This document shows, piece after piece, positions 2,171 through 36,207 of a DNA stretch of 36,207 nucleotides. A program made the translations under genes and the position numbers. Positions within the stretch are counted from its first letter, which is position 1; every line of letters begins with the position of its first letter. A model generated the notes under the pieces. That model saw only the letters and a program-made list of their open reading frames with translations. It searched no databases and was not told where the DNA came from. The stretch lies in the IMG/VR virus record IMGVR_UViG_3300018421_000084, positions 1 to 36,207 of that record; one strand, 5' to 3'. This DNA is from a virus.

Positions 2171-4315
2171 ATGCATAATATAGGTACAGATTTTGTTTGG
2201 TTTATGGGTGTAGTCGAAGATAGAAACGACCCGCTGCAGATGGGTCGTGTTCGTGTTCGCACCCATTGGCAAACAGCCGACAAAGATATTTTGCCTACGG
2301 AAGATTTGCCGTGGGCTCAAATAACTGTACCTTCTTCCGCTACTTCTGGTGATGTTGGCGGCACATCCACTGGTTATGCAGAAGGTTCATGGGTTGTTGG
2401 TTTTTTTATGGACGGAGAACATAAACAACACCCACTAATACTCGGTGCGATATCAGGTATACCAACAAAATATCCAGATTCGACTTGTGGTTTCAATGAT
2501 CCTAGAGGTGTCTATCCTCAAAGAGTAAATGAACCTGATATGAATCGTTTGGTTCGCACAAAAACGATACGGGAAGAATCTGTAAAACTTTTAAGAACCG
2601 AAGAAGAAACAAACGCTAATTTGCATCCCTCGATTGCGTTTAGAAATCAATATGTGGACGATTTGACAGGAGAACCTGTACCGAGTAGAAACAGTGAGTA
2701 CCCATATTCACAAGTAAGAGAAACCGAATCTGGCCATATACAGGAATTTGATGATACACTAGGCGCCGAAAGAATTGCTACCATGCACCGTACAGGTACA
2801 ATGGAAGAATATCATCCTGACGGCAGCCGTGTAAATCGCACTATGAAAGATAATTATCACATCACTTATGGTGATGATTATGTGAGAGTCCGTGGTGTTT
2901 CAAAAGTGTATGTTGATGGTGATGCGTCTTTATATGTCAGAGGAAAATTAGTCACGCAAGTTGACGGTGATATGGAAACATATGTCGCTGGAAACTACAC
3001 CATGGATGTGGGCGGTAGTATTAATGTGACTACAGATGGCAGTCACACATTGGAGGCCAAACAAGCTATAAGTCAAACTACCACATCTACCTATACATCT
3101 TTATCGTCTGGTAAAATGACCTTTAGCACAAAAGACCAACTACTCGCTCAGTCTGAAAAGAATTTTGATATCAACACGAAAGATGAGTTTAGAGTTCGTT
3201 CAGGTGAAATTGAACTGCATTCTTCGGATGGTGGAAATATCACATTTTATTCTGCGAAAAATATTACTGGTTTTTATTGTGACAATACGGACTTCTTAAA
3301 AGTTTGTGTTTTCGAGTCTCCTGATAATATTGCAGCTGTTACTGTACCAGACGCATTAATTCTGGAGTCTTATGCTCTGAATGAATACCCTAGTATATTC
3401 CCTAGGTATGGTAGAAAATTAGATATAGGAAAAGGTTTTCAAGATGTTTATCGAGAAGATTTAGGCTCAACGCCTGGCGGTGAACAAAGCGGTTTTGCAC
3501 CAGACGATTCAGGCCAAGATTCAAACTCATCTTCTAAGTACGAAACTGATGTTACCACTTCAAACGAAGCGTTAACTACAAGCAGAGCTGTCGGTAATAG
3601 TGGCGTAACAGATTCTAATAATAGACCTACAGGACAACAAGTTGAAGACCAAAATGCTCATGGTAAAGATAAACCGCATTCAAATGTTTTAGATGTAGCA
3701 CTTTCAGCAAAAGATTTAGGTCCTGATGCATGGGTAGACGGCGACGCAGCTGAAGGTCGAGCTAAGTATTCGAATCCAGGAAATCCAAACATAATAAGAT
3801 GTTTTGAGGATATGGGATGCTTAGGAGTCGCTAAGTCAATTAATCCTTTGAGATATGATAAAACTGCATGGTGTGCTGCTTTTGCTGGCGCAATGCTTCG
3901 TAGATCCGGTAATAAATACCTAAAGACTTTATCTTCTAGAGCATATGAGCAAAATGCGAGTAAAATCGGCATTTTAATTTCGACTACTTATGAACCCGAT
4001 AAAATGAAACCTGGCGATATACTTGTTTTTGGTCGTAGCGGTAAGAGTGGTAAACCTTTTAGGTCTTCCCCTTACGGACATATAGGATTTTGGACAGGTA
4101 ATAAGAACGCTCCTGCTGGTAAAGTCATGTGTTTAGGAGGCAATCAGAGCAACAAGGTCACGGTTAGACCTTATTCGATAGAAAAGGGAACAGAATTCGG
4201 ATTAGTTGCAGTAATACGGCCTGTATCTGGAAATGACGGTAAAACACCTCAACCAGATCCAGGTTCAATCAGAGAAATAGTAGCAGACCAAGGCGGATCA
4301 GACAGAGTAACATAA
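2171..4315 (+). CDS. 5: Baseplate central spike gp5 homologue with a C-terminal NlpC/P60- or CHAP-like peptidoglycan hydrolase domain
   Basis: This 714-aa protein pierces the outer membrane and opens the cell wall during injection. Residues 1-105 form the gp5/VgrG OB-fold, with GVVEDRNDPLQMGRVRVR near the start and HPLILGAISGIP near its end. Residues about 190-350 hold the spike repeats (VDGDASLYVRG, VDGDMETYVAG), as in the triple-stranded beta-helix. Residues about 435-500 are a Ser/Gly/Asp/Thr-rich linker. Residues about 520-695 resemble the TIGR02594-type cysteine hydrolases: WCAAFAG with Cys568, YGHIGFW with His637 and LGGNQSNKV with Asn658 as the probable catalytic set. T4 gp5 (575 aa) instead carries a lysozyme domain between the OB-fold and the helix, and nothing like it is visible here. 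The gene lies 5 bases after the hub gene and 1 base before gene 25. Confidence 0.93.
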   Translation: MHNIGTDFVWFMGVVEDRNDPLQMGRVRVRTHWQTADKDILPTEDLPWAQITVPSSATSGDVGGTSTGYAEGSWVVGFFMDGEHKQHPLILGAISGIPTKYPDSTCGFNDPRGVYPQRVNEPDMNRLVRTKTIREESVKLLRTEEETNANLHPSIAFRNQYVDDLTGEPVPSRNSEYPYSQVRETESGHIQEFDDTLGAERIATMHRTGTMEEYHPDGSRVNRTMKDNYHITYGDDYVRVRGVSKVYVDGDASLYVRGKLVTQVDGDMETYVAGNYTMDVGGSINVTTDGSHTLEAKQAISQTTTSTYTSLSSGKMTFSTKDQLLAQSEKNFDINTKDEFRVRSGEIELHSSDGGNITFYSAKNITGFYCDNTDFLKVCVFESPDNIAAVTVPDALILESYALNEYPSIFPRYGRKLDIGKGFQDVYREDLGSTPGGEQSGFAPDDSGQDSNSSSKYETDVTTSNEALTTSRAVGNSGVTDSNNRPTGQQVEDQNAHGKDKPHSNVLDVALSAKDLGPDAWVDGDAAEGRAKYSNPGNPNIIRCFEDMGCLGVAKSINPLRYDKTAWCAAFAGAMLRRSGNKYLKTLSSRAYEQNASKIGILISTTYEPDKMKPGDILVFGRSGKSGKPFRSSPYGHIGFWTGNKNAPAGKVMCLGGNQSNKVTVRPYSIEKGTEFGLVAVIRPVSGNDGKTPQPDPGSIREIVADQGGSDRVT

Positions 4316-4316
4316 C

Positions 4317-4718
4317 ATGTTTGTAGAATCAAAAAATAAAGTTTATTCGGACATACCATTATCGTTTACAGCTCATCCTGTAACTGGTAATGTTAAAGCT
4401 GTCAAAAATGCAGATTCAATTATACAATCTGTTAAGAATATTGTTTTGACTAATTTTTTTGAAAGACCTTATGAACCATATCTTGGTGGTAATATTTACA
4501 ATCGTTTATTTGATAATGTCGAATCTACTTATACACAATTTCTAATTGCTGAAGATATCACCACATCACTTGAAAACTATGAACCAAGAGCAGATATACT
4601 AAATGTTTCTGTATTTCCAGATGCAGATCGAAACACACTTAAAATAACAGTAAAATTCATTCCAGTAACCTCAGCAGAGCCCGTGACTGTCGATGTTATC
4701 GTAGAAAGAGTAAGATAA
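4317..4718 (+). CDS. 25: Baseplate wedge protein gp25 (GPW/gp25 family)
   Basis: At 133 aa it is almost the same length as T4 gp25 (132 aa). In the wedge, gp25 sits in the inner baseplate with gp53 and gp6 and has a lysozyme-like fold without known activity. The sequence shows the family pattern: an N-terminal SFTAHPVTGNVKAVKN segment, an amphipathic helix containing IIQSVKNIVLT, the hallmark FFERPYEPYLGG turn (about residues 46-57), and a C-terminal beta-hairpin (LKITVKFIP). The start ATG is one base after the gene 5 stop, and the next gene starts one base after its stop, so expression is coupled to the surrounding baseplate operon. This is one of the safest calls in the window. Confidence 0.95.
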   Translation: MFVESKNKVYSDIPLSFTAHPVTGNVKAVKNADSIIQSVKNIVLTNFFERPYEPYLGGNIYNRLFDNVESTYTQFLIAEDITTSLENYEPRADILNVSVFPDADRNTLKITVKFIPVTSAEPVTVDVIVERVR

Positions 4719-4719
4719 A

Positions 4720-6555
4720 ATGTCACAAATAGATGTAACAGAATTAGATTTTAGTAAAATAAAACAATCGATCAAAGATTACATATCAGACCAAGATGAG
4801 TTCAAAGATTATAACTTTCAAGGGTCTGTAGTTAATCTTTTATTGGATATGCTTGCATACAATTCGTACCAGAATGCTTTCTATACGAGTATGATAGGTA
4901 ATGAAATGTTTCTTGATTCAGCACAACTCAGAGACAGTGTTGTTTCAAGAGCTAAGATGCTTGATTACATACCCGCGTCCGTAAGGTCTGCAAGAACAAG
5001 TATGAATATTACATACAACGAAACCGATGATTCAGATGTTGTGACGATACCGAAAGGAGAAATTTTTAAAGTTACTTCCGACACAGGCGAAGTTTTACAG
5101 TTTGTCACAGGTCAAGCTTACAATGTTTATAAGACTCTGAACTACACAACCGATATTGATGTTTTTGAAGGAATATATGTCGATCAAACCTTTACTGTCA
5201 GTGATTCAAATCCTGTAAAATATGTTTTAACGAATACTAACATAGACACCGCATCAATAACCGTCACAATTCGACAGACTCTAGGCTCGACAAACACAGA
5301 AATCTTTACTTTAGCAAATAATATCGAAGAGGTAAAATCAACTTCAGCGGTTTACTTCCTACAAGAAGTGACAAATGGCACATACGAACTTTATTTCGGT
5401 GATGATAACATAGGTAAAAAATTAACAGATGGTAACATTGTCGAAGTGAATTATAGAGTATCGGTGGGAGATGATGGTAATGATGTTAGAACCGATTCTT
5501 CTTGGTCAGCTGTAGACCCTGATATCACAATAAACAGCGTTTCAAATCAAACATATGATGGTGCTGATATAGAGACAATCGAATCAATAAAATATAATGC
5601 TCCTAAAAATTATGAAACACAGAATCGCGCCGTATTAGCTGAAGATTATAGAAGAATATTACTCAGAGATTTTCCAGGTTTAATCAATTCTTTGCGTATT
5701 TGGGGTGGTGAAACAAATGATCCTCCTGTTTATGGTAAAGTATTTGCTAGTATTCAACCAAAGGGTTCTAGAACTCTTTTATCGACTAATCAAAAGGATG
5801 ACATAAGAAAGCAATTAAAAAGATATAATGTTATGACAAATGAAATTGAATTCATTGACCCTTCATATAATTATATCATACCAAGTATAACGGTTTACTA
5901 TGATAGTAATGCCACTTCCTTAGACGCAGGACAAATTGCAAATAAGGTGGCCACTACTGTACAGAATTTCGAAACGACCTATTTGGGTAATTTTGAAAAT
6001 AGATATTTCCGTTATTCACTCTTCTCTAGGCTTATAGACCAAACTGACCCGTCTATACTCTATAGTGACACGAAAATACAATTACAAAAAAGATTTACTC
6101 CTTTACAGAGTTTAAAATCTAAGTATACGATTAACTATTCGAAAAAACTAATTAATATTTCAGGTCAATCAAATATTTCATCTTCTTCTTTTACCGTAGG
6201 TGGTAGAAAAGTCTTTTTTGATGACGATTCAAATGGAAATTTAAGATTGTATTATTTTAACGATCTGAATCAGGTTGTGTATACGGATAATAATATAGGA
6301 ACAATTGATTACGAAAATGGTATTTTAACTTTACCTAATTTCGGACCTGATAGTGTATCGGGAAATGAAATAAAAATAAACGCTACTCCAGTAGATTCTA
6401 ATTTAGTTACATCTAAATATTTAATCATGTTATTGTCCGATACTAAAATAACTGTCATAGACGATAGACAACAAGAAACTTCAAGTTCTATAACAGTTAC
6501 AACAACAGGCTCAGTAACACAAATTAATGAAACAAACCTCGGTACAATTATATGA
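4720..6555 (+). CDS. 6: Baseplate wedge protein gp6 (Baseplate_J-like)
   Basis: This 611-aa protein corresponds to T4 gp6 (660 aa), which forms the inner ring that holds wedges together and triggers the baseplate conformational change. The N-terminus, DFSKIKQSIKDYISDQ followed by GSVVNLLLDMLAYNSYQN (about residues 9-55), is the classical gp6/J-like opening. Later, AEDYRRILLRDFPGLINS and GKVFASIQPKG (about 305-350) are the conserved core of J-like proteins. The C-terminal about 100 residues are beta-rich. Gene 25 ends one base upstream. The next gene overlaps the stop by four bases (ATGA at 6552-6555). No truncation or frameshift is seen. Confidence 0.93.
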   Translation: MSQIDVTELDFSKIKQSIKDYISDQDEFKDYNFQGSVVNLLLDMLAYNSYQNAFYTSMIGNEMFLDSAQLRDSVVSRAKMLDYIPASVRSARTSMNITYNETDDSDVVTIPKGEIFKVTSDTGEVLQFVTGQAYNVYKTLNYTTDIDVFEGIYVDQTFTVSDSNPVKYVLTNTNIDTASITVTIRQTLGSTNTEIFTLANNIEEVKSTSAVYFLQEVTNGTYELYFGDDNIGKKLTDGNIVEVNYRVSVGDDGNDVRTDSSWSAVDPDITINSVSNQTYDGADIETIESIKYNAPKNYETQNRAVLAEDYRRILLRDFPGLINSLRIWGGETNDPPVYGKVFASIQPKGSRTLLSTNQKDDIRKQLKRYNVMTNEIEFIDPSYNYIIPSITVYYDSNATSLDAGQIANKVATTVQNFETTYLGNFENRYFRYSLFSRLIDQTDPSILYSDTKIQLQKRFTPLQSLKSKYTINYSKKLINISGQSNISSSSFTVGGRKVFFDDDSNGNLRLYYFNDLNQVVYTDNNIGTIDYENGILTLPNFGPDSVSGNEIKINATPVDSNLVTSKYLIMLLSDTKITVIDDRQQETSSSITVTTTGSVTQINETNLGTII

Positions 6556-17438: not shown

Positions 17439-17660
17439 ATGGCATTACTTAAAGTAAAAGAAAACAAAAATCTTGTGAGAGATAGTATAAGTAATGCTAT
17501 TCTTTCAACAAATAACGATGAGTTGGCAAAATATAGACAGAAAAAAGCAAAGAGTCGCGAATACGAAGAAGCAATAAACGATATAAATAATATAAAATCA
17601 GAATTAAGTGAGATCAAATCACTTTTAACACAATTAGTAGGAAATAACAGTGGCAACTGA
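17439..17660 (+). CDS. Small coiled-coil virion-associated protein, function unknown
   Basis: This 73-aa protein begins MALLKVKENKNLVRDSISNA with AILSTNNDELAKYRQ, then a charged helix and a C-terminal heptad-like stretch (INDINNIKSELSEIKSLLTQL). Small proteins with an N-terminal NLVRD motif sit beside fibre and neck genes in marine T4-like phages, as far as I recall, and their role is unknown. The last 11 bases overlap the GTG start of the fibre gene in another frame, which suggests translational coupling. A short trimeric coiled coil encoded just before a trimeric fibre could act in assembly or as a connector, but this is inference. Confidence 0.6.
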   Translation: MALLKVKENKNLVRDSISNAILSTNNDELAKYRQKKAKSREYEEAINDINNIKSELSEIKSLLTQLVGNNSGN

Positions 17661-20600
17661 TGGCATAAAAGTTTCAAATACCGAAATTACACAAACGTTT
17701 GACGTTTGGAGAAGAAATACCAATGACGCTGCTGATCGTCTAAACTCTATAACTACGAGCTTTGAGAACAACCGAATTACCTTAACTGGTAATGTGGAAG
17801 TAGGTACTTCGATGGCGCCGGCGAGTAATTTTGTTGTCGATTCTGGAACGAATAGGGTCGGTATTGGTACATCAACACCTGCTGTTAAATTAGACGTTGA
17901 TGGTGAAACAAATATATCGGCTGATCTAAAAGTAGATACCGATACTCTATATGTTAATTCAACTACTGATAGAGTAGGTATTAATAACGCAACTCCAACC
18001 GAAGCTCTTGATGTTACAGGTAAAGTACTTGTATCCGATGATTTGAAAGTAAGTGGTGTAGTATCAAATGTTCTTTATGTAGACACATCAATAACAGCTG
18101 TAGGTATTAATGTAGATTTGCCTACTCCTGGTTCTTTAGAAGTTTCTGGAAATGTTGTTTTACAGAACTCAGATTCTTTAAGAATTAAAACCAGTGATGG
18201 TACACTTCAAACTGTATTAACTGCAAACACTTCTAACTCTACTATACTACAAGGCTCTGGTGGTACAGAAAGTATTGTATTAGCTTCTTCAAATGGTACT
18301 TCTAGAATAACAATGACAGAAGCAGGTGTCGCTTCTTTTTCTGCTAATGCGATATTTGACACTGATACTTTGTATGTCGATTCCGTTAATGATAGAGTAG
18401 GTATTAACATAGTTCCTACAGTATCGTCTTCTTTAGAAGTAGGTGGAAATGTCGTCTTACAGAATACAGACGAATTACAAATTAAAAATAACGGTGGAAC
18501 ATCACAAACAGTATTAACTGTAAATGCTTCGGACTCTACAATACTTCAAGGTTCTGGTGGTACAGAAAGTGTTGCAATTAAATCTTCTGACGGTACTTCT
18601 AGAATAACAATGACGGAAACGGGTGTAACAGCCTTTACTGCTAATGTTTCTATACCAGATAATGAAATACTTTCGATTGGCAATTCAGAAGATTTACTCT
18701 TTTATCATGACGCGACTAATAGTTATGTTCAAAGTACTACGGGTAATTTGAACATTCAAACAACTTTCACAGATAGTATTGTAATTGAACAACTTGGTGC
18801 AGTCACTTTATATTTTAATGGTGATCCAAAATTAGCTACAAAAACCGACGGTGTAGATATCACAGGCGAACTTCAATCAGATTCTTTGGATGTTGATGGC
18901 GTTGCTGATATTCTTGGCGCTACTACACTTCAAAGTACATTGCAAGTCGATGGAATTGCCACATTTAATAACAATGTTAGCCTTCAGGATAATGATAGTT
19001 TATTGATTGGAACTGGCGATGACCTTCATCTTTATCACGATGCAAGCGATAGTTATATTAAAGAACAAGGAACAGGCGACCTCTATATTCAAAGTACTGC
19101 TGGTGCCATTCGACTTCAAACAAACTCCAGTGAGAATAGTATCGTTGCTTCTCAAGATGGCGCTGTCGATTTATACCATGATAATGTCCTAAGATTTTCC
19201 ACTACGGCTTCAGGCGTAAATGTTCCTAACACTCTAGCAACTAATTTGTTAAATGTCTCCGGAATTTCTACTTTCAGTAATGAAGTTAACGTTATTGACA
19301 ACCAAAGAATTTATTTAGGAACAGATCAAGATTTTGAGATTTATCACGACGGTACTAATGATACTCTGTTTGTTGCTACCACAGGAGATACAGTAACTCA
19401 TAAGGCCGATACATTTAATGTACAGTCTGCCACTGGTTCAGAGAATATGGCGACATTTACATTAAATGGCGCTGTTGATTTATATCACAATAATAATCTA
19501 AGATTATCCACTACGGCTTCAGGCGTAAATGTTCCTCAAACATTAACTGCTGCTGGTTTAGATATCAATGGTACAGCGGACATTTCTCAAGGCGTAACAC
19601 TGAATAGTTCTAGTGGTACCACAACTATTCAAGGTGCTACAACTATTAATGATACGCTTGATGTTAATGATACGCTTGATGTTACAGGTATTACTACTCT
19701 CTCGAATGATTTATTGGTTAGTACTGCTTCTAACGCTTCAAATACTTTGTTCGTAGATGTTTCTACACAAAGGGTCGGTATTAACAATGATTCTCCTACA
19801 CAAGCACTAGATATCGCCGGTAATATTGATTTAACAGGTATCATTAAGGCCACAAATGAAAATCCAGGATACTTCTTGACTCTGGATACCGGTGGCACAT
19901 CAATGTCATATGTTGATATTACTAATGTTTTAGCAAGTAATGGTACTGTTTCAAAACCATTAAATGCGCCATATCCAAATGCGATAGGTACTGAAAGAGA
20001 TGTAGCTACTTGGTCAAGTAATACTGTCATAACCGGTAATACAAATATGTTGACTTATGACACAGCTGCAGGTCAACTCAATGTTAAGTCAAACAGTCAA
20101 GCTTCAGCTACATTAAGTATTCAAGATTCTACTGATCACGCAGAATTCGAAAAAGACGGTTCGCTTTTAAGTATAAGATCTGGCCCTCTTGGCGGTAGTA
20201 TACTATTTTCTGGCGCTACAGACACTACTAATATTGGTAGTTTTCAAGTGCGTTTTGGTGGCGTCAATCAAGATATTTACCATTCAGGAAATCTACCGGA
20301 TGATGTAACGGTCGATGATGAAGAATCCTCTGCTTCAACACACTATTTGACATTCATAAACACATCAACCGGATCTCAATCTAGATTATATGAAGATAGC
20401 GGCCTAACATATGTTCCTAGTACAGGCACACTTACTGCTGCAGCATTCTCTGGCGATGGTTCTTCTATCACAAACATTAATGCTACTGATGTAGGAGGAT
20501 TAAATAATAATATCGTAGTCATCACTGATGGTGCTGGAGGAGATTTAACAAGTAGCGCTGTCACCGCTGATGAACTAAGTGTGTTGGATGGAGGTACATC

Positions 20601-22104
20601 TGCTATCGCTACTACGGTAGCAAACGCTGACCGTGTCGTCTTTAATGACGCCGGTACAATGAAACAAGTGGCTATGACCGACTTACATGATTATTTTGAT
20701 TCCGCTAATCATACAATAACTGGTCAGAAAACATTTGGTTCGGGTTCACTACTTAAATTTAACGATAATGTTGAATTGCAAATGGGTACTGGTTCTGGTG
20801 GTGACTTTGTAATTGATTTTAATACTAATGATTTGGTCATACATCAGAATGAATCTACACTTAACGACATATTAATAACCAACACGGCGAATGCCACTAA
20901 ATTTACCTTTGATATATCAGCAGGAGATTTAGCAGCCACGACATTTACTGGAGATTTGGTTGGTAATGCCGATACTGCTACTGACTTGTCTAGATCTGTA
21001 ATTGCTGGAGATGGTCTAACTGGTGGTGGACAATTAAACACTAATCAAACACTTAGTGTCGATACTACCGTTGTGAGAACTACTGGCACACAAACTATTG
21101 CTGGCAATAAGACATTTGGTACTGGTTCACTACTTAAATTTAACGACAATATTGAATTACAAATGGGGTCCGGTACTGGCGGCGACTTTGTGATTGATTT
21201 TAATTCGTCTGTTAATGATTTGGTTATACATCAGAATGTAAATGATGATCACGACATAATAATAACTGATACAACCGATGCCACTAAATTTACCTTTGAT
21301 ATATCAGCTGGAGATTTAAGCGCCACAACATTTACTGGAGATTTGGTTGGTAATGCCGATACTGCTACTGACTTGTCTAGATCTGTAAATGGAGGGTCAG
21401 GATTGACAGGTGGTGGACAGTTAAACACCAACCATACACTTGATGTCGGCCAAGGCGACGGTATATCTGTTACTGCTGATGCTGTTGCTGTCGATAGCAC
21501 CGTTGTTAGAACTACTAGAACTGTAACCGCAGGAAGTGGTTTAACTGATGGCGGAGCATTAAGTTCAGATATAACACTTAATGTCGGCCAAGGTGATGGT
21601 ATATCTGTTACTGCTGATGCTGTTGCTGTCGATAGTACTGTTGTGAGAACTTCCGGTACACAAACTATTGCTGGCAATAAGACATTTTCGAATACTATTG
21701 ATTTTAATGGAGCCGTTGATTTAAATGGAGCTACAACATCTAGCTTATCCTTTGTTGTTGATGGTGGTCAGTTAAGGGTAAATGATTCTGTTGAATTTTA
21801 CCTAGGTTCGAATCTCGACACTGCATTTTTCCACGATGGTACACATTTATATCTTGACTTAAATAACGATGGCATTGCAGGCGATAATCTTTATATCCGG
21901 GATAGGAACGGAGGAACCACTACAAGATTTACAATGTCTGCTGATACAGGAGATTTGACGCTTGCTACAGGAGATTTAGTTCTCACATCCGGTTCCCTTG
22001 TAGGAGATTCCGACATACCTAGAATAAGTAGTAGTTTTACAGTGACACTAAATATAAAAAATTCAGCTGGTACTACACAGAAAACATTAAAATCTATACC
22101 ATAA
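17650..22104 (+). CDS. Long repetitive tail fibre protein, GTG start
   Basis: This 1484-aa protein starts at GTG 17650, preceded by AGGA seven bases upstream. The first residues (VSNTEITQTFDVWRRNTND) match fibre N-termini of marine T4-like phages, which supports this start. Residues about 143-337 contain two copies of a roughly 99-residue repeat (VGIN, NVVLQN, ILQGSGGTES, SRITMTE). Three to four beta-motifs of the type LHLYHDASDSYI with GTGDLYIQS occur near residues 349, 458, 560 and 1392. Residues about 1025-1260 contain two further related repeats (GSLLKFNDN, FTGDLVGNADTATDLSRS), then two copies of VGQGDGISVTADAVAVDS. The fibre is probably a trimeric receptor-binding or adaptor rod. It ends in SAGTTQKTLKSIP with no S74 chaperone domain and no recognised receptor tip. 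Confidence 0.82.
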   Translation: MATDGIKVSNTEITQTFDVWRRNTNDAADRLNSITTSFENNRITLTGNVEVGTSMAPASNFVVDSGTNRVGIGTSTPAVKLDVDGETNISADLKVDTDTLYVNSTTDRVGINNATPTEALDVTGKVLVSDDLKVSGVVSNVLYVDTSITAVGINVDLPTPGSLEVSGNVVLQNSDSLRIKTSDGTLQTVLTANTSNSTILQGSGGTESIVLASSNGTSRITMTEAGVASFSANAIFDTDTLYVDSVNDRVGINIVPTVSSSLEVGGNVVLQNTDELQIKNNGGTSQTVLTVNASDSTILQGSGGTESVAIKSSDGTSRITMTETGVTAFTANVSIPDNEILSIGNSEDLLFYHDATNSYVQSTTGNLNIQTTFTDSIVIEQLGAVTLYFNGDPKLATKTDGVDITGELQSDSLDVDGVADILGATTLQSTLQVDGIATFNNNVSLQDNDSLLIGTGDDLHLYHDASDSYIKEQGTGDLYIQSTAGAIRLQTNSSENSIVASQDGAVDLYHDNVLRFSTTASGVNVPNTLATNLLNVSGISTFSNEVNVIDNQRIYLGTDQDFEIYHDGTNDTLFVATTGDTVTHKADTFNVQSATGSENMATFTLNGAVDLYHNNNLRLSTTASGVNVPQTLTAAGLDINGTADISQGVTLNSSSGTTTIQGATTINDTLDVNDTLDVTGITTLSNDLLVSTASNASNTLFVDVSTQRVGINNDSPTQALDIAGNIDLTGIIKATNENPGYFLTLDTGGTSMSYVDITNVLASNGTVSKPLNAPYPNAIGTERDVATWSSNTVITGNTNMLTYDTAAGQLNVKSNSQASATLSIQDSTDHAEFEKDGSLLSIRSGPLGGSILFSGATDTTNIGSFQVRFGGVNQDIYHSGNLPDDVTVDDEESSASTHYLTFINTSTGSQSRLYEDSGLTYVPSTGTLTAAAFSGDGSSITNINATDVGGLNNNIVVITDGAGGDLTSSAVTADELSVLDGGTSAIATTVANADRVVFNDAGTMKQVAMTDLHDYFDSANHTITGQKTFGSGSLLKFNDNVELQMGTGSGGDFVIDFNTNDLVIHQNESTLNDILITNTANATKFTFDISAGDLAATTFTGDLVGNADTATDLSRSVIAGDGLTGGGQLNTNQTLSVDTTVVRTTGTQTIAGNKTFGTGSLLKFNDNIELQMGSGTGGDFVIDFNSSVNDLVIHQNVNDDHDIIITDTTDATKFTFDISAGDLSATTFTGDLVGNADTATDLSRSVNGGSGLTGGGQLNTNHTLDVGQGDGISVTADAVAVDSTVVRTTRTVTAGSGLTDGGALSSDITLNVGQGDGISVTADAVAVDSTVVRTSGTQTIAGNKTFSNTIDFNGAVDLNGATTSSLSFVVDGGQLRVNDSVEFYLGSNLDTAFFHDGTHLYLDLNNDGIAGDNLYIRDRNGGTTTRFTMSADTGDLTLATGDLVLTSGSLVGDSDIPRISSSFTVTLNIKNSAGTTQKTLKSIP
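18076..18660 (+). repeat. Two degenerate copies of a 297-base (99-codon) in-frame repeat in the fibre gene
   Basis: The two copies are offset by 297 bases. For example, AAGGCTCTGGTGG begins at 18251 and its counterpart AAGGTTCTGGTGG at 18548. The DNA has diverged mostly at third positions while the protein pattern is kept, so this is an old duplication under coding constraint. Confidence 0.8.
19198..19536 (+). repeat. Exact 30-base direct repeat pair (19198-19227 and 19507-19536) in the fibre gene
   Basis: The 30 bases encoding STTASGVNVP occur identically 309 bases apart, with related flanks encoding VDLYH and N-N/V-LR. The exact DNA identity compared with the diverged flanks points to recent duplication or local gene conversion. 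Confidence 0.85.
19648..19683 (+). repeat. Perfect 18-base tandem duplication in the fibre gene
   Basis: Two identical in-frame 18-base units encode NDTLDV twice (fibre residues 667-678). Perfect tandem identity suggests a recent slippage or duplication event. Confidence 0.9.
20731..21388 (+). repeat. Two approximately 270-base in-frame repeats in the fibre C-terminal part
   Basis: Copies at about 20731-21001 and 21112-21388 share long identical stretches, including an exact 61-base match (20941-21001 and 21328-21388). The second copy has six extra bases. A shorter piece of the leading edge (21091-21117) recurs exactly at 21661-21687. Confidence 0.85.
21443..21635 (+). repeat. 55-base repeat pair, period 138, in the fibre gene
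   Basis: Copies at 21443-21497 and 21581-21635 differ at two silent positions and encode GQGDGISVTADAVAVDS twice. Confidence 0.85.
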
Positions 22105-23074: not shown

Positions 23075-23599
23075 ATGAAAAATCACACCTTATTAGACGC
23101 ACACTTTTCCGATAATCAAAGAACGGTCGTTCGAATTCTTTGGCAAGATAATGACAATCCTGAAAATGTTATTGTGGAAAACGCACAGGCCGAAGAAAGT
23201 GATGCGATATGGTTAGATTTAATCGAGAATCACGGTATCGATATCGATTGGTTACATGAAAGAACATATAAACACATCAAAGAGACGCAAATAGAATTTG
23301 AAGATTATGCTATTGAAGTGGCAAAACAAAGAGGCCTCGTTTACGATAGTGATGTGGATTCGAATCTATACGGAAACTTAGCCAATTTTCTTTTTGAAAA
23401 GAGAAATGAAGAAGATGAAGAATCTTCTGAGATATACGACGAAAAATTATTCTTGTATAAACTCGCTTTATTTGAACACGAGTTAGTACAAGTATCCGAA
23501 AAAACAGAACTCAAAAAAGAATTAAGACAGTCTAAATCTATTTTAGAAGCTACTAAAAAGGTTATTGAGATTATAGAAAATAGTGAGAATACCAACTAG
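23075..23599 (+). CDS. Conserved acidic helical protein, function unknown
   Basis: This 174-aa protein starts nine bases after the preceding stop behind AGGAGA. It is acidic in the middle (RNEEDEESSEIYDEKL) and helical at the C-terminus (ELVQVSEKTELKKELRQSK). The pattern LFLYKLALFEHE followed by a charged helix is one I recall from small proteins encoded behind fibre genes in related phages. Their role is unknown, and assembly chaperone or scaffold are possibilities. It is the last plus-strand gene before the opposite-strand cassette. Its final 29 bases overlap the 3' end of the convergent gene, and a terminator-like hairpin lies within its last codons. Confidence 0.6.
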   Translation: MKNHTLLDAHFSDNQRTVVRILWQDNDNPENVIVENAQAEESDAIWLDLIENHGIDIDWLHERTYKHIKETQIEFEDYAIEVAKQRGLVYDSDVDSNLYGNLANFLFEKRNEEDEESSEIYDEKLFLYKLALFEHELVQVSEKTELKKELRQSKSILEATKKVIEIIENSENTN

Positions 23600-24134
23600 G
23601 TATTCTCATTTTATCATAGTTTTGATTAAATAGATATACTGTATAATCCCTTTCATCTTGATACGTGTGATAAGAACAGAAATTTTCTGTGTACATTTTA
23701 GGCCTGTAGTATTGATATAAAAATTCGTCCATACCATACTTAAACTTTTTAATTAATTTCTCTGGGTCACTTTTAAAAAATCTGTAAATAACGGACAAGT
23801 CTCCTTCCCAGGAAATTATACTTGAGTTTATAGGGTTTATTTTATAATACTCTTCGTGTTTTCTATGCCAAGCGTGACATACCGTTAACTCTTTTCTTAA
23901 AAAGAAATTACAGTCTCCTTTTATCAATATGTCTAGATCGAAGAATATGTTTTGGCCTTCTCTAAAATGATTGAATATTTGAATCTTATCATATACTCCG
24001 CCAAATTCTTCTTGATCTATAACTTCAAACTTATCATATTCTAAACAAGAATATTTGTCTATCATATGTTTTAGATTTTCAGTATACCAATTTGAATATT
24101 TTTCGCCAGTATTAACCGCTATTACTCTCAACAT
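23571..24134 (-). CDS. Small glycosyltransferase-like protein, last gene of the minus-strand cassette
   Basis: With the ATG at 24134 this is 187 aa. A GAAAAGAG ribosome site lies about eight bases upstream, whereas the TTG six codons earlier (24152) lacks that support. The N-terminus MLRVIAVNTGEKYSNWYTEN and IFFDLDILIKGDC with Asp66-x-Asp68 look like a GT-A type nucleotide-sugar-binding core with a DxD metal site. It is short for a full glycosyltransferase, so it may be a minimal or partner protein. It overlaps the upstream glycosyltransferase gene by 23 bases and the convergent plus-strand gene by 29 bases. The function is inferred from the DxD and from its neighbours. The sugar donor and acceptor are unknown. 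Confidence 0.6.
   Translation of the reverse strand: MLRVIAVNTGEKYSNWYTENLKHMIDKYSCLEYDKFEVIDQEEFGGVYDKIQIFNHFREGQNIFFDLDILIKGDCNFFLRKELTVCHAWHRKHEEYYKINPINSSIISWEGDLSVIYRFFKSDPEKLIKKFKYGMDEFLYQYYRPKMYTENFCSYHTYQDERDYTVYLFNQNYDKMRIPSWYSHYFL
23584..23612. terminator. Bidirectional terminator-like hairpin between convergent transcription units
   Basis: The hairpin has a perfect 10-bp stem (TGAGAATACC, five-base loop AACTA, GGTATTCTCA) followed by TTTT on the plus strand. Read on the minus strand the stem is followed by CTATTTTCT. The plus-strand stop TAG (23597-23599) lies at the loop and stem border. The hairpin is also inside the last codons of the minus-strand gene, so it could end both convergent transcripts. 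Confidence 0.65.
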
Positions 24135-24927
24135 TTCCAAAACTCTTTTCAAATTCTTTAGTGACGTGGTGAATTAAATAAGCTGCGTCTGACATTTCAT
24201 TAAACTCTTCGGTAATCATAAAATTCCATTGCATTCCTATTTCTTGTGTAGGTATGTTAAATCTTTCTATTAGATATGAAAAATACACTTCGTTATTTGG
24301 TTCCCAGTTTGAGTATATTTCAAAAGGATATAAGTTATCTATCAAACTCTCTCTGAACACTTCATTACAGTGATTCATTCTTTCTTTGAATCTTAATAGT
24401 TCTGCGGTTTTCTTACTTAATCCTATTACTCCTGTATTGACAACTTTATCTGTGGATTTTGTGTTTTCTAATAATAACATAGATTTTTTAACGCATGTTT
24501 TAACGTGCATTTCCATAGGACCCCAACAATAGTCACGTTGTTTAATTTTTATAAGCTCCTTTAAACTTCCAAATAGGCCTTCAAATTCTCTTTTTATCCA
24601 ATGACAACATATTTTTTCCTTTAGATCGTTTTTTTCAAAGAAGGAAACATTTTTATTTGGTACAACATCAAAATCTAGATACAAAACTTCATCATAATCA
24701 TTACAGAATTCCTCTAATTTATATATTTTTTCAAACTGTAACATATCATAGAAAACTTCTCTCGGATTTAATAATACATAATCCGCTTTACACGATAAGG
24801 CATAGTCTTTGTGGCTCTTTTCTATTAGGTTCCTGTATTTTTCAAATTGATTCCTTTTGAAGTCGTTTGTGGAAGTTTTATATTCTTCTATATTATCAGT
24901 ATACATACTGAAAATTAATCTTTTCAT
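24112..24927 (-). CDS. Putative GT-A glycosyltransferase, paralogue of the first cassette gene
   Basis: This 271-aa protein begins MKRLIFSMYTDNIEEYK and contains DEVLYLDFDVVP with Asp85-x-Asp87, the expected metal and nucleotide-sugar-binding DxD of GT-A enzymes (GT8-like layout). NTGVIGLSKK and a late His-containing segment (AAYLIHHVTKEFEKSF) follow, as in the 307-aa gene of the same cassette. The two share the opening MKR-x-IFS, the DEVLYLDFDVVP block and an exact 22-base DNA match (24657-24678 and 26466-26487), so they are paralogues. GGAG lies just before the ATG, and the start overlaps the radical SAM stop (ATGA). It probably transfers a sugar to a surface glycan, lipid or protein, and the substrate is unknown. 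Confidence 0.75.
   Translation of the reverse strand: MKRLIFSMYTDNIEEYKTSTNDFKRNQFEKYRNLIEKSHKDYALSCKADYVLLNPREVFYDMLQFEKIYKLEEFCNDYDEVLYLDFDVVPNKNVSFFEKNDLKEKICCHWIKREFEGLFGSLKELIKIKQRDYCWGPMEMHVKTCVKKSMLLLENTKSTDKVVNTGVIGLSKKTAELLRFKERMNHCNEVFRESLIDNLYPFEIYSNWEPNNEVYFSYLIERFNIPTQEIGMQWNFMITEEFNEMSDAAYLIHHVTKEFEKSFGNVESNSG
24143..24150 (-). promoter_or_regulatory. Ribosome-binding site that decides the ATG start at 24134
   Basis: GAAAAGAG on the minus strand lies eight bases before the ATG and favours it over the upstream in-frame TTG. It lies inside the 3' end of the preceding gene. Confidence 0.55.
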
Positions 24928-25904
24928 ACTCCGCAGAACCTTTCACACTGATATATTGGATTCTCTTTTATTGATTTTTTTAAATCTGAATTAAACCATT
25001 TATTTAATAGTATTTCTTCTAATGAATTCGAAAATACATTTAGTTCATTTTTATTGTTTTCATACTTTTTTATAATTTCATTTTCAAAAAAAGAATTATT
25101 TCGACTTGTGTAAGGATTCCCAAAATAACAACAAGGATGTACGGAACCATCGTAATTTATATTTACTTCATTTAAGTTTTCCCACTGACAAAAAACCTTT
25201 TCGATCTTTTTGTTAGGTATAAAATTTACATCTTTTGTGGACTTTTCTAAAAAATTGTCTTTGTAATGATAGATTTTTTCTTTATCAAATCTGCTACTGA
25301 ATAGTTCAACGTGTCTTTTAGAACCGTGATCGATACACATTTGTTTAATTTCTTCGAGATAATCTTCATTATGTTTAAATATTACTGTCTGTGACCATGC
25401 TTCAGCACGAAAAGCTTCAGAAAAGGCTTTCATATTATTTAATATCTTTTTCAAATTAGTGTTAACTCTATACCTTTCATGCATTTCTTGATTTAATCCG
25501 TCTATTGCAAAGATAACACTCAATTCTTCGAATTTTCTTTTTGCTAAAGATCCAAATTTCCACCACCACTCTTCATTTCTAATTGAACCATTGGTACTGA
25601 CTCTTATTTTAATATTTCTATTTACATTAAAACAGTGTTTCACCATATCATATAAATGAGGATTCATCACAGGATCTCCCCAAGTGGGAGAAAAATGTAT
25701 TTCTCCTATTCGTTTTAAATCATCTTCGCTAAAGGCCTTCGTGAAGTCTTCTATAGTCCAATTCATAAGAGGTAACCAATCTACTTTTTTCAGAGTTTCT
25801 GGAGTTGTTCTATGGCACTGAGGACATTTAGCATTACAATAAGTTGATATATCTAATTGTATCTTTAGATCTTCTATTTTCCAATGAGTATTATTTTTCA
25901 GCAT
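24924..25904 (-). CDS. Radical SAM enzyme with a SPASM/twitch-like C-terminus
   Basis: This 326-aa protein carries the canonical radical SAM cluster motif CNAKCPQC (Cys23, Cys27, Cys30). It is followed by FSPTWGDPVMNPHLYDM, equivalent to the SAM-contacting GGE region, and VSTNGS and FAIDGL strands of the partial TIM barrel. The C-terminal part has further cysteines, Cys239, Cys258, Cys259, Cys320 and Cys324 (VNINYDGSVHPCCYFG and YQCERFCGV), typical of SPASM or twitch auxiliary cluster domains. Such enzymes cleave SAM to a 5'-deoxyadenosyl radical and modify peptides, proteins, sugars or small molecules. It sits between two paralogous glycosyltransferase genes and overlaps both, so it is likely to work on the same product. 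The actual reaction cannot be told from sequence. Confidence 0.93.
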   Translation of the reverse strand: MLKNNTHWKIEDLKIQLDISTYCNAKCPQCHRTTPETLKKVDWLPLMNWTIEDFTKAFSEDDLKRIGEIHFSPTWGDPVMNPHLYDMVKHCFNVNRNIKIRVSTNGSIRNEEWWWKFGSLAKRKFEELSVIFAIDGLNQEMHERYRVNTNLKKILNNMKAFSEAFRAEAWSQTVIFKHNEDYLEEIKQMCIDHGSKRHVELFSSRFDKEKIYHYKDNFLEKSTKDVNFIPNKKIEKVFCQWENLNEVNINYDGSVHPCCYFGNPYTSRNNSFFENEIIKKYENNKNELNVFSNSLEEILLNKWFNSDLKKSIKENPIYQCERFCGV

Positions 25905-26814
25905 CTATTCGATTCCTAACAAATTCAAAATCTTTGTTTATTACATGTACTAATGCCGTGTCTTTTGGTATGTAATTCCATTTAGTTATTATGTAATGCC
26001 ATTTTTCATCTAAAAAGGTTGTTTTAACATTATTCTCTTTTGTTTTGAAACTCCATATCGTTTCGTTATCCCAACCAAAAATACCTTTCATCCAGTCTAA
26101 CCATGGACTATCTTTGTCTTCTTTTAATTGTGTCATTTCTTTAAGTAAACTATCAAAATTTTCCCAATAAGATAATTGATCTAAATATTTTTTAGAAGTT
26201 CCTATAATTCCAGTATTAAAAACTTCTACCTTTCCACCGTAACCCTTTTCTAAACATAAGGCTCTACAATTCCAGTACTTCGCCGTCGGTGAACGATTAT
26301 TAGCGATAAAATCCCTTCCTATTACCGATTCACTTTTATATCGAAAGCTGTTTTCACGAATATCATTTATCTTTTTAATTTGTTTCATTTCATTTTCGTC
26401 AGAAATTTTTATTATATTACCATTTTCTTTAATGTTCCACACATCAAAAAAACTTTCTGTTGTGGTTGGTACAACATCAAAATCTAGGTATAAAACTTCG
26501 TCGTATACTTCACACAGTTCGTAAAGTAAATGTATCTTATAAAAATTTACGATATTGTACTCAGTGATGAACGGATATTTTTCATTAAAATTTCTTTTGA
26601 AACTTAACCACTTTTCGCCATACTCGAAAATTTTGTATTCGACGCCAATGGTCTCTGCGTATTTCTCATGATTTTCTTTTAACCACGAATAGTATTCTCG
26701 CATTTTCAATTTTGTACGCAAGGTTTTAGGAATGTCGTCCTTATAAAAAGGAGGTTGGTAATCTAAATCCTTTTCTGGTATATCGATATAAAGACTAAAA
26801 ATAACTCTTTTCAT
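25891..26814 (-). CDS. Putative GT-A glycosyltransferase, first gene of the minus-strand cassette
   Basis: This is 307 aa from the ATG at 26814. A GTG two codons upstream is in frame but forms part of the GAGAGGTG ribosome site, so the ATG is preferred. It contains DEVLYLDFDVVP with Asp111-x-Asp113 and NTGIIGTSKK (Asn200), in the order of GT8-like retaining glycosyltransferases. A Trp-rich stretch (WLDWMKGIFGWDNETIW) and HVINKDFEF close the fold. It overlaps the radical SAM gene by 14 bases. It is longer than its paralogue mainly through an insertion between the DxD and NTG motifs. The sugar and target are unknown. Host lipopolysaccharide, phage virion protein or a small metabolite are all possible. 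Confidence 0.75.
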   Translation of the reverse strand: MKRVIFSLYIDIPEKDLDYQPPFYKDDIPKTLRTKLKMREYYSWLKENHEKYAETIGVEYKIFEYGEKWLSFKRNFNEKYPFITEYNIVNFYKIHLLYELCEVYDEVLYLDFDVVPTTTESFFDVWNIKENGNIIKISDENEMKQIKKINDIRENSFRYKSESVIGRDFIANNRSPTAKYWNCRALCLEKGYGGKVEVFNTGIIGTSKKYLDQLSYWENFDSLLKEMTQLKEDKDSPWLDWMKGIFGWDNETIWSFKTKENNVKTTFLDEKWHYIITKWNYIPKDTALVHVINKDFEFVRNRIDAEK

Positions 26815-26819
26815 ATTCA

Positions 26820-26825
26820 CCTCTC
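26820..26825 (-). promoter_or_regulatory. Ribosome-binding site deciding the ATG start at 26814
   Basis: GAGAGG on the minus strand ends five bases before the ATG at 26814. The alternative GTG start at 26820 would overlap this site and is therefore unlikely. Confidence 0.6.
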
Positions 26826-33968: not shown

Positions 33969-33976
33969 TATAAATA
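33969..33976 (+). promoter_or_regulatory. T4-type late promoter box (TATAAATA) for the portal gene
   Basis: This is an exact TATAAATA immediately after the terminator and 37 bases before the gene 20 ATG. An AGGA ribosome site lies between. Confidence 0.8.
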
Positions 33977-34005: not shown

Positions 34006-35640
34006 ATGCAGCTATTCGGTTTTACCATAACACGAGACGACGCAAAAGAAACACAACCATCTTTTGCTCCACCAAAAATAGATGATGGTGCTATTGAGAT
34101 TGCACCAGGCGGTACTTACGGTACTTACTTTGATTTTGACGGTAAGACAAAAGACGAAGGCCAGTTAATCACAAGATATCGTGATATGTCTGTCACTGCG
34201 GAATGTGACGCAGCAATTCAAGATATTGTTAACGAAGCCATTGTAGTCAGTGACGACGGTGATATTCTCGAAATTAATGTCGAAAAAGTAGATCAACCAA
34301 ATAAAGTTAAGAATGATATTCGCGAAGCCTTTGCAGAAATACTAAGACAATTAGATTTCAATAAAAAGGCTCATGACATTTTCAAGAAATGGTATGTCGA
34401 TGGTCGCATGTACTACCATATCATTGTTGATATTGAAAAACCAACCGATGGTATTAAAGAACTTAGATACATTGATCCTCGTCGTATTAAAAAGGTTCGT
34501 GAACCAATTCGCGAAAAAGACCCTAAGACTGGTGTGGTCGTAAATAAGGGTTATAAAGAATACTACATTTACAATCAAAAGGGTGTTTACAATAATCACT
34601 CTACACAAGGTGTAAAGATTGCAGCCGATTCTATCGCTTATACTCACTCAGGTATTACAGACGGAAAAACAAGCACTGTATATTCACACCTACAAAAGGC
34701 TGCAAAACCACTCAATCAGCTTCGCGTTCTTGAAGATTCAATCGTAATCTATCGCCTTGTTCGCGCACCAGAAAGACGAATTTTCTACATTGATGTTGGT
34801 AATTTACCTAAGATGAAGGCCGAACAATATCTACGCGATATGATGGTCAAACATAAGAACAAGCTTGTATATGATTCTGCGACTGGTGAAGTCAGAGACG
34901 ACCGCAGACATATGACTATGTTAGAAGATTTCTGGTTACCTCGTCGTGAAGGTGGTCGTGGTACAGAAATTACGACACTACCTGGCGGACAAAACCTTGG
35001 TGAGATTGAAGATGTTGAATACTTCCGTCGTAAACTATACAAGTCATTGAATGTACCTTTCACTCGACTTGATGTAGAAAACAGTGTATTTAACATTGGT
35101 CGTTCACAAGAAATTACAAGAGACGAAATTAAATTCAGTAAGTTTGTTGATAGACTGCGTAACCAATTTGCGACATTATTTAACAATCTTCTTGAAATAC
35201 AATTAACGCTTACAAAGAAAATTAAGCGCGAAGATTGGGAGATGATTCGTCAACAAATTGATTATGATTTTCAAAATGACAACCATTTCACCGAACTGAA
35301 AGAAGCTGAACTGTTAAAAGAAAGACTGGCACTTGTAGATCAAATCGATCAATATGTCGGTCGTTACTTCTCATTAGATTATGTTCGCCGTCAAGTATTA
35401 AGAATGAGCGAAGAAGATATTGCGTTTATAGATAAACAAATGAATAAAGAAGGCGAAGAAGTTGTAGCACCACAAACACAACAACAACAACTTTCAGTGC
35501 AACAACAGCAACAAGAACTTGAAATGCAAGCTCAACAGGCCCAACAACCACAACAACAGAAAGAAGAACTAACTTATGAGGAACGTGAATTAATGGAAAG
35601 TATGACTCGCTTTATGGACTCTATGACGGACGAAGATTGA
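34006..35640 (+). CDS. 20: Portal vertex protein gp20
   Basis: This 544-aa protein (T4 gp20 is 524 aa) forms the dodecameric ring through which DNA enters and leaves the head. The sequence shows the T4-type portal: [20 protein letters not shown] with DIVNEAIV (about residues 52-80), [17 protein letters not shown] (about 126-142), [36 protein letters not shown] (about 253-272), [20 protein letters not shown] (about 307-326) and [10 protein letters not shown] (about 381-390). After residue 485 the C-terminus becomes a glutamine-rich tail of about 40 residues, followed by an acidic helix ending in MTDED. The conserved core is complete. The next gene starts two bases after the stop. Confidence 0.97.
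35468..35566 (+). repeat. CAA/CAG-rich simple-sequence tract in the portal gene
   Basis: The region encodes a tail dominated by glutamine with several CAACAA or CAACAG runs. It is low-complexity and in frame, and prone to length change by slippage. Confidence 0.75.
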
Positions 35641-35641
35641 T

Positions 35642-36207
35642 ATGAAAATACAGGAAGCGAAGTTGTTTGCTTCCGTTCTTGCGGTTGTTAAACAACAAAC
35701 ACAGAAACTCACAGAAGATATATTAGAAAAAGTTAATATCATCGAAGGACCTTCTGGTCCAAAAGGTGATGCTGGTGAGAAAGGAGATAAAGGTGATACA
35801 GGAGCTAGGGGCGCTCGTGGTTCCAGGGGTGAGAAGGGACTACAGGGTGAAACCGGATTACAAGGTGAACAAGGTCCAATCGGCGAGCAAGGCCCAGCTG
35901 GAGAACAAGGCCTTCAGGGAGAACCAGGCGAAAAAGGAGAACCAGGCTTACTTGGCGAACAAGGAGAAATTGGACCAAGAGGTCCTCAGGGTTTACAAGG
36001 AGAACGGGGAGATCGAGGAGCACCTGGTCGAGACGGTAAAAATGGATCTGATGGTGTAAAAGGAGACAAAGGCGATAAGGGTCCGAAAGGTGATAAAGGA
36101 GATCCTGGTAAACAAGGTCCAAAAGGCGAACGAGGATTAAAGGGCGATAAGGGTCCGAAGGGCGACAAAGGTGACAAAGGTTCACAAGGTAAGATAGGAC
36201 CAAAAGG
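35642..36207 (+). CDS. Collagen-like protein, 3'-truncated by the window edge
   Basis: The ATG at 35642 opens a frame with no stop to the window end (188 complete codons). Residues 1-35 form a predicted helix ([20 protein letters not shown] then [11 protein letters not shown]), likely a trimerising coiled coil. From Gly36 to the edge the sequence is an unbroken run of 51 Gly-X-Y triplets ([16 protein letters not shown] and so on), rich in GDK, GEK, GPK, GEQ and GLQ, the hallmark of bacterial and phage collagen triple helices. Such proteins form rod-like fibres on virions. It begins two bases after the portal stop, so it belongs to the gene 20 late transcript and is probably a structural or decoration fibre. 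The C-terminal domain, which would tell its role, lies outside the window. Confidence 0.92.

Follow-up and report, generated by a model that had tools for sequence, protein, structure and literature searches.

What does a collagen-like gene do directly behind the portal gene of a T4-type virus? The gene order around T4 gene 20 is generally taken as a fixed head-building block, and its neighbourhood holds the prohead core and protease genes 67, 68, 21, and 22. The DNA analysed here, a 36,207-b stretch of a virus record (hereafter, the window), carries a T4-type virion module (head adaptor and closure, terminase, sheath, tube, and portal), and its right edge falls inside a gene that opens at 35642, behind the portal gene, and runs into collagen repeats. 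An earlier note on this DNA had called a collagen rod at this place unexpected and had suggested a head or neck fibre, or a cargo protein made with the portal. Collagen-like phage proteins as a kind are already known; as far as literature and database searches tell, the slot, the horn-type partners, and the portal peptide described here are new.

Anatomy of the rod gene

The collagen-like frame begins with an ATG that is separated from the portal stop codon (35638-35640) by 1 b, not two as previously noted (Table 1). Residues 36-188 of the window frame form 51 unbroken Gly-X-Y triplets behind a head that is probably helical. Since the completed protein of a related locus, L002, scores 105.4 bits with the Pfam family PF01391 (Collagen), for which the cut-off is 27.2, a chance origin of the Gly-X-Y match is, on that score, out of the question, and the rod read at the window edge is confirmed. 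Two contigs from other records, L105 (99.97% identity to the window over 6123 b) and L003 (99.64% over 8276 b), complete the gene. In both, the frame reaches its stop after 359 aa, and the stop codon or frameshift that the earlier note had considered just beyond the window was found in neither. The L105 protein has 58 unbroken triplets (residues 36-209); behind these it probably forms a coiled coil and continues with a cap (GGGG-ILDMDDV) and an end domain of the pattern YIGEAxPG...WRIKR...WDDRxTY. In the shaft, X positions are mainly E, D, and P and Y positions K, Q, and R, with 13 KGD/KGE and no GPP, a composition as in collagens that lack hydroxyproline. Taking 0.29 nm per residue, the figure used in PMC3368898, the 174 shaft residues would span ~50 nm if folded.

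Table 1. Features of the portal and rod locus (window positions unless L105 is named).
Feature	Position	Strand	Basis or remark
T4-late-promoter-like TATAAATA before portal gene	33969..33976	+	motif match
Portal protein gene (gene 20 type), 544 aa	34006..35640	+	phrog_213 portal, E 8.3e-200
Portal C-terminal extension, residues 495-544	35488..35637	+	without counterpart in T4 gp20
N-terminal head, putative virion anchor, residues 1-35 of collagen-like protein	35642..35746	+	head comparisons
Collagen-like shaft, 51 Gly-X-Y triplets, frame open at window edge	35747..36207	+	translation, Pfam
Complete rod gene, 359 aa	L105 5558-6637		C-terminal region = residues 210-359
Cassette, rod gene and payload, ~9.1 kb	L105, ends 14654		gene order

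PHROG names for the rod were mostly "tail fiber", but the repeats drive those matches. The NCBIfam models Scl and Lcl of LPXTG collagen-like adhesins gave 129, 125, and 115 bits, below the required 325, 400, and 500. An AlphaFold2 model of the C-terminal 126 aa (pLDDT 87.3, pTM 0.57) had no PDB match at a Foldseek E <= 0.001 and one BFVD match, at 3e-4, to an uncharacterised phage protein. The best VIA-align hit of this model (Z 5.4) covered only 49 residues and was set aside, and the AP-2 mu chains that were the sole matches in a profile search of PDB sequences (E 0.66-1.2) were taken as chance.

Pairwise comparison showed the rod gene to be under purifying selection. The dN/dS ratio was 0.11-0.23 over the gene; between L105, L004, and L005 it was 0.12-0.23 over the gene, where dS was high (0.8-1.3), 0.16-0.31 over the shaft, and 0.06-0.08 over the C-terminal region. 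Over the 35-codon head it ranged from 0 to 0.91 (from 0.18 to 0.91 in these three), a stretch of few codons in which constraint was not clear in all pairs. The proteins of L105, L003, L004, and L005 have the same length of exactly 359 aa despite compensating indels of whole triplets. Across 30 non-redundant members of the class, the median number of triplets was 54 (quartiles 41 and 57), with clear exceptions, among them the L135 group with 14.

A regular slot behind the portal gene

Far from being unexpected or isolated, the collagen gene is usual in the closest relatives found. From 530 candidate portal loci the best 80 were sampled, a choice that favours close relatives; eight of them had less than 250 b after the portal match and were dropped. 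In 68 of the 72 kept, a Gly-X-Y frame comes immediately after the portal, beginning -37 to +9 b from the portal stop, and only L027, L048, L059, and L064 have none there. These 68 loci have 44 distinct heads. An AKxL motif, with A, K, and L each at least 90% conserved, runs through the heads that were aligned (22 only), and distant loci, L135 and L152 among them, carry a different type of head. When the C-terminal domain was used as a portal-blind query, 79 loci were obtained, of which four, open at the 5' end, were dropped; 59 of the remaining 75 (contigs partly redundant) lay within 350 b behind a T4-type portal, and 56 of those 59 carry a run of 10 or more triplets. The other 16 encode mostly small proteins (67-255 aa) with no T4-type portal nearby, four of them with a gene like gp53 of Synechococcus phage Syn5.

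A 50-residue GEAxPG...WRIKR...FDKxWDDRxTY domain was seen in small proteins away from T4-type portals (L180, L184, L188, L190, L191, and others); the three examples scanned had no Pfam family above cut-off, and the best PHROG match over the end domain was to a tail fiber family (E 0.027, L180). In one of those 16 loci, L091 (= L187), a lambda-type phage with a PF05136 portal and a GpA terminase, a Gly-X-Y gene (4215-4940) with a related C-terminal end also lies directly behind the portal.

Searches of 50,697 phage records by tblastn returned no match to the window's partial protein (E 1e-5, low-complexity filter on) or to the C-terminal region (E 0.01), and a 68-aa head found none at E 10; ends of 57 and 67 aa gave weak matches only (E >= 0.9), the best to a tail protein of JenP2. 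The four cultured relatives examined, DLP6, S-H38, Mosig, and Melnitz-2, have no collagen gene behind their T4-type portals. Among the literature matches listed, in which subscription papers are little covered, none concerned a collagen gene behind a T4-type portal, and the word "collagen" is absent from the main text of the Far-T4 paper (PMC4360716). In many uncultured T4-type bacterial viruses, a collagen-like rod gene stands immediately after the portal gene as the first of an exchangeable set, some members of which are related to genes of the head horn of a single cyanophage, Syn5.

The insert and its Syn5-type genes

Behind the rod gene, L105 has genes of 874, 68, 551, 920, and 227 aa, then genes of 120 and 278 aa that occupy the place of 67 and 68 (PHROG match weak or none), and further on gene 21 (phrog_207), a gene for a gene 22-type protein, and gene 23 (phrog_138). 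The T4 gene order is intact apart from this insert of ~9.1 kb. The prohead genes that the earlier note placed near gene 20 are present, only downstream of the insert, and hence are not missing; the rod protein itself, compared with the T4 prohead core genes 67/68, is not one of them. A close relative of the second class of rod locus (see below) lacks the insert cleanly: relative to L017, 3.4 kb is absent in L027 and replaced by 83 b between the portal and the gene in place of 67, with flanks of 82.8% identity over 9.3 kb and 90.2% over 1.8 kb, and the 54-kb L027 contig, a fragment, has no collagen match. The insert is therefore accessory, the empty site being known for the second class and not for the window's own.

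Three of the L105 genes have counterparts in Syn5. The 874-aa gene, next after the rod gene, matches gp53 (BLAST, 39% over 159 aa, E 5e-26), with further colinear blocks up to the C terminus. The model of the gp53-like protein was poor (pLDDT 54.9). The 551-aa gene matches the C terminus of gp54 only (BLAST, 33% over 146 aa, E 1e-7; 2e-40 with a gp54 C-terminus profile that was trained on both sides), and gp55 is matched by the 227-aa gene, through a profile from which Syn5 had been left out (E 5.3e-25). The order 53-54-55 is common to Syn5, S-TIP28, Maribacter phage Panino (two gp54-like genes), Virus Rctr197k, and the insert; gp53 homologues occur in six of the 50,697 phage records. In Rctr197k, the gene before the gp53 homologue ends like the rod C-terminal domain (194 aa, E 3.7e-4). 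Whereas Syn5 is a T7-like podovirus, the set of the window lineage stands behind a T4-type portal and includes 68-aa and 920-aa genes as well; a relative of the latter in L009/L107 matches phrog_1645, "virion structural protein", and its cyanophage relatives (S-RIM8, S-RIM32) lie between gp16 and gp17.

The proteins of the Syn5 horn are reportedly gp53 and gp54, antibodies to which are said not to have blocked infection, both points being attributed to Raytcheva and others (J Virol, 2014); we thus take the neighbours of the rod gene to be homologues of horn genes. The horn sits on the vertex opposite the tail, as stated in PMC10575957. No run of eight or more Gly-X-Y triplets was found in the stretches examined of Syn5 (16 kb) and its relatives, so that the rod gene itself is evidently not a known part of the Syn5 horn.

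The motif TATAAATA, which we take to be the T4 late promoter, occurs in the window no more often than chance allows (8 found, mean 5.02, 14 of 100 shuffles reaching 8), and the copy before the portal gene therefore carries no weight alone. In L105, nine were found against 1.54 expected, a number reached in 0 of 200 shuffles, and a sigma-70 scan of that contig gave fewer sites than its shuffles (40 vs. 48.7).

Elsewhere in the window, four opposite-strand genes (23571-26820, minus) lie amid the virion module. One encodes a radical SAM/SPASM protein (24924-25904, minus), and the other three had no Pfam match, two of them reading by eye like glycosyltransferases; glycan or peptide modification of the virion is possible. 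A Gp5-type hub protein (Gp5_OB, 2171-4315) includes a CHAP-like stretch (24.0 bits, under the Pfam cut-off of 26) that perhaps stands in for the T4 lysozyme domain. A fibre-like protein of 1484 aa with two BppL_N stretches is encoded at 17650-22104, and the phage thus appears already to have a long fibre gene outside the rod cassette.

Two classes of rod with a similar cap

Rods that end in the WDDR-type domain were followed by a gp53-like gene in 6/6 cases (two pairs nearly alike), and those with an EVRLEFLDDVD-type cap, which lead other payloads, in 0/44, or 0/28 when at least 2.5 kb lay behind; none of 18 further rod genes, unclear in class or cut, had one. Among domain loci with at least 3.9 kb behind them, a gp53-like gene was found in 33/35 and a gp53- or gp54-like gene in 35/35, on contigs that are partly redundant and with profiles trained on Syn5 plus members of the window lineage. 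Since the heads align across both classes and a profile of the second-class cap reaches the first class (best E 6.5e-9; 69/79 at E <= 10; L105 0.0019), a similar anchor appears to carry exchangeable payloads. The same cap profile matches gp46, the tail fibre of Syn5 (E 2e-4), as well as proteins from S-SM2, P-TIM68, and Bellamy that are named "tail fiber-like" (E 5e-24 to 5e-20), with which the rods have the cap GGGEVRLEFLDDVD in common. Unlike the rod, the latter proteins have no Gly-X-Y runs, and the cyanophage slot lies between gp16 and gp17, whereas that of the window lies behind gp20. In the one second-class cassette tested, L029/L108, a neighbour protein has an Mtd_N domain.

The C-terminal tail of the portal protein

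T4 gp20 aligns to residues 10-494 of the window portal, and the extension beyond them consists of a Q/E-rich (E/D/Q/P-rich) linker and an end peptide (35578-35637). A set of 300 portals, less 9 not closed and the duplicates, gave 157 from the window's group and related ones, two of which had too little sequence behind. A profile of the end peptide, trained on 45 of the 90 portals that precede a collagen gene, matched 85/90 of these (41/45 held out) and 1/65 without a collagen gene, the single positive being the empty-site L027. A single clade, made up of relatives of cyanophage S-H38, accounts for most of the 65 (34 of the 39 retained in the tree), so that much of this association reflects ancestry. 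With rows over 95% alike removed (103 left), a tree-based test comprised six independent pairs, in which the peptide was concordant in 4.5 on average and opposite never; the association thus fell short of significance (median p 0.0625). L149, with its interrupted repeat, was scored there as "no collagen", and scoring it otherwise gave five pairs and a median p of 0.125.

The peptide and the rod head co-vary beyond portal distance (64 rows, partial r 0.27, 0 of 2000 permutations). When tails and heads were typed by eye-chosen patterns in 50 rows, eight of nine B tails went with a B head and one with another head; of nine B heads, eight had a B tail and one an unclassed tail, and 30 A tails and 10 unclassed tails went with other heads. 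L011 and L006 differ by 6% in their portal cores, yet both peptide and rod are switched between them, and the break in identity sits in the last part of the portal gene. This indicates that the unit of exchange would start inside the portal gene; since the peptide and the rod gene are ~10 b apart and move together anyway, joint switching is no sign of binding.

The motif [LI]xE is that of the T4 prohead protease. It occurs in 58/64 peptides and in 58/64 rod heads, against shuffled means of 52% and 66% and a level reached by 0 of 1000 shuffles, and in portals without a rod gene the figures were 13% vs. 17%; the rows being related, we regard the enrichment as a hint only. To the eye, C-terminal ends of gene 68-type (L105 15064-15900 and relatives) and gene 22-type (L105 16984-18081) proteins, such as SFMTMVDFAM (L027) and MDAISRTIKK (L105), bear some resemblance to the end peptide of the portal.

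What the rod may be

On balance, we lean toward an account in which the protein is a homotrimeric collagen-like rod with which an accessory virion appendage begins and by which it is anchored. The head, 35 residues long, would fasten the rod to the particle, the 58-triplet shaft would act as a spacer, the coiled stretch and cap would hold the trimer in register, and the C-terminal domain would grip partners encoded next door, i.e., the homologues of Syn5 gp53 and gp54. Rod gene and payload would form an insert, open to exchange, that separates gene 20 from the block before genes 21-22-23, and the set may be made together with the portal. Judged by its partners, the appendage would most likely be horn-like and sit on the head or neck, a location favoured by the horn homologues and by the slot. 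The head or neck fibre first proposed is likewise favoured because the neighbours are homologous to gp53 and gp54: the fibre-type gene right behind the portal and its Syn5-like neighbours stand, and the protein may be on the head, neck, or tail, or inside the head.

Known systems offer likenesses. SPP1 gp12 is coded among head genes. PMC7602432 describes it as a collagen-like capsid spike, a predicted trimer on the phage head that binds the centre of capsid hexamers, and the rod is likened to it by this description. The fibres EPclA-D of E. coli O157:H7 prophages combine, as the rod does, a coiled coil, a collagen rod, and a C-terminal trimerisation domain, and the ends of EPclA are about 50 nm apart, according to PMC3368898. 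The EPcl end domains PfN (PF08400) and PfC (PF06820) were absent from the rod, in which PF01391 alone was found at E 0.01. In the hyperplastic region g15-g18 of cyanomyoviruses, as outlined in PMC2984593, variable genes are inserted in the virion module, as they are here.

An extra tail or baseplate fibre, in which the rod and its neighbours would be receptor-binding and the slot merely convenient for host-range genes, is possible but rather unlikely. The supposed role of the g15-g18 region resembles such a host-range site, and like heads with unlike C-terminal ends and payloads are combined in the fashion of fibres. Annotation habit points to the tail as well: collagen-like phage proteins are common (958/50,697 records match a relative's protein, mainly by repeats), and among the matches listed they are mostly annotated as tail proteins. 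So do the Mtd_N domain, that of a phage tropism determinant, in the neighbour of the second-class cassette, and the occurrence of the cap in the Syn5 tail fibre and in the cyanophage "tail fiber-like" proteins between gp16 and gp17. The window's class, however, is tied to homologues of Syn5 gp53/54/55 and not to known tail genes, its slot is among head genes, and a long fibre-like gene with BppL_N stretches is present already, all of which argue against a tail fibre.

More doubtful is a proposal that concerns attachment: the portal may have acquired its flexible C-terminal tail to dock, by the end peptide, the rod head, so that tail, rod, and payload would make up one exchangeable "plug-in" unit with its boundary inside the portal gene. 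No part of the T4 portal lies further inside than its crown, which holds the C terminus (PMC4493910), and a contact between peptide and rod would therefore be inside the head. Such an interior-facing contact would argue against a horn that is simply external, and it is the chief conflict in our account.

The portal peptide would, by the T4 structure, face the head interior, which leaves some room for the idea of a cargo protein. The rod would then be a prohead-core or internal protein whose head binds the portal tail inside the prohead and which is packaged, perhaps to be ejected with the DNA, and we regard this as improbable. The unequal occurrence of the end peptide with and without a rod gene, the joint switch in L011/L006, the innermost crown, and the richness of both peptide and rod heads in [LI]xE favour it. 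Against these, sequences ~10 b apart are co-inherited whatever their function, the tree-based test was not significant, and the rod length, the protein size (up to 1604 aa), and the horn homologues better suit an outer appendage. Finally, repeats assemble badly in general and are interrupted in L149, L150, and L151, but the notion that they are an assembly error, or the untranslated remains of a decaying gene, is refuted by the identical frame in two other contigs, besides the low dN/dS and the many distinct heads, and its probability is negligible.

For T4-type phages, these results mean that a group of uncultured members regularly interrupts the gene 20 block with an accessory appendage set. 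Homologues of Syn5 gp53 are now linked to dozens of contigs with T4-type portals, and the gene set shows where horns could be looked for. The pairing of portal peptide with rod head lends itself to tests in vitro; if docking proves true, one phage lineage could swap appendages, whether a Syn5-type horn or other adhesins, by way of a matched pair.
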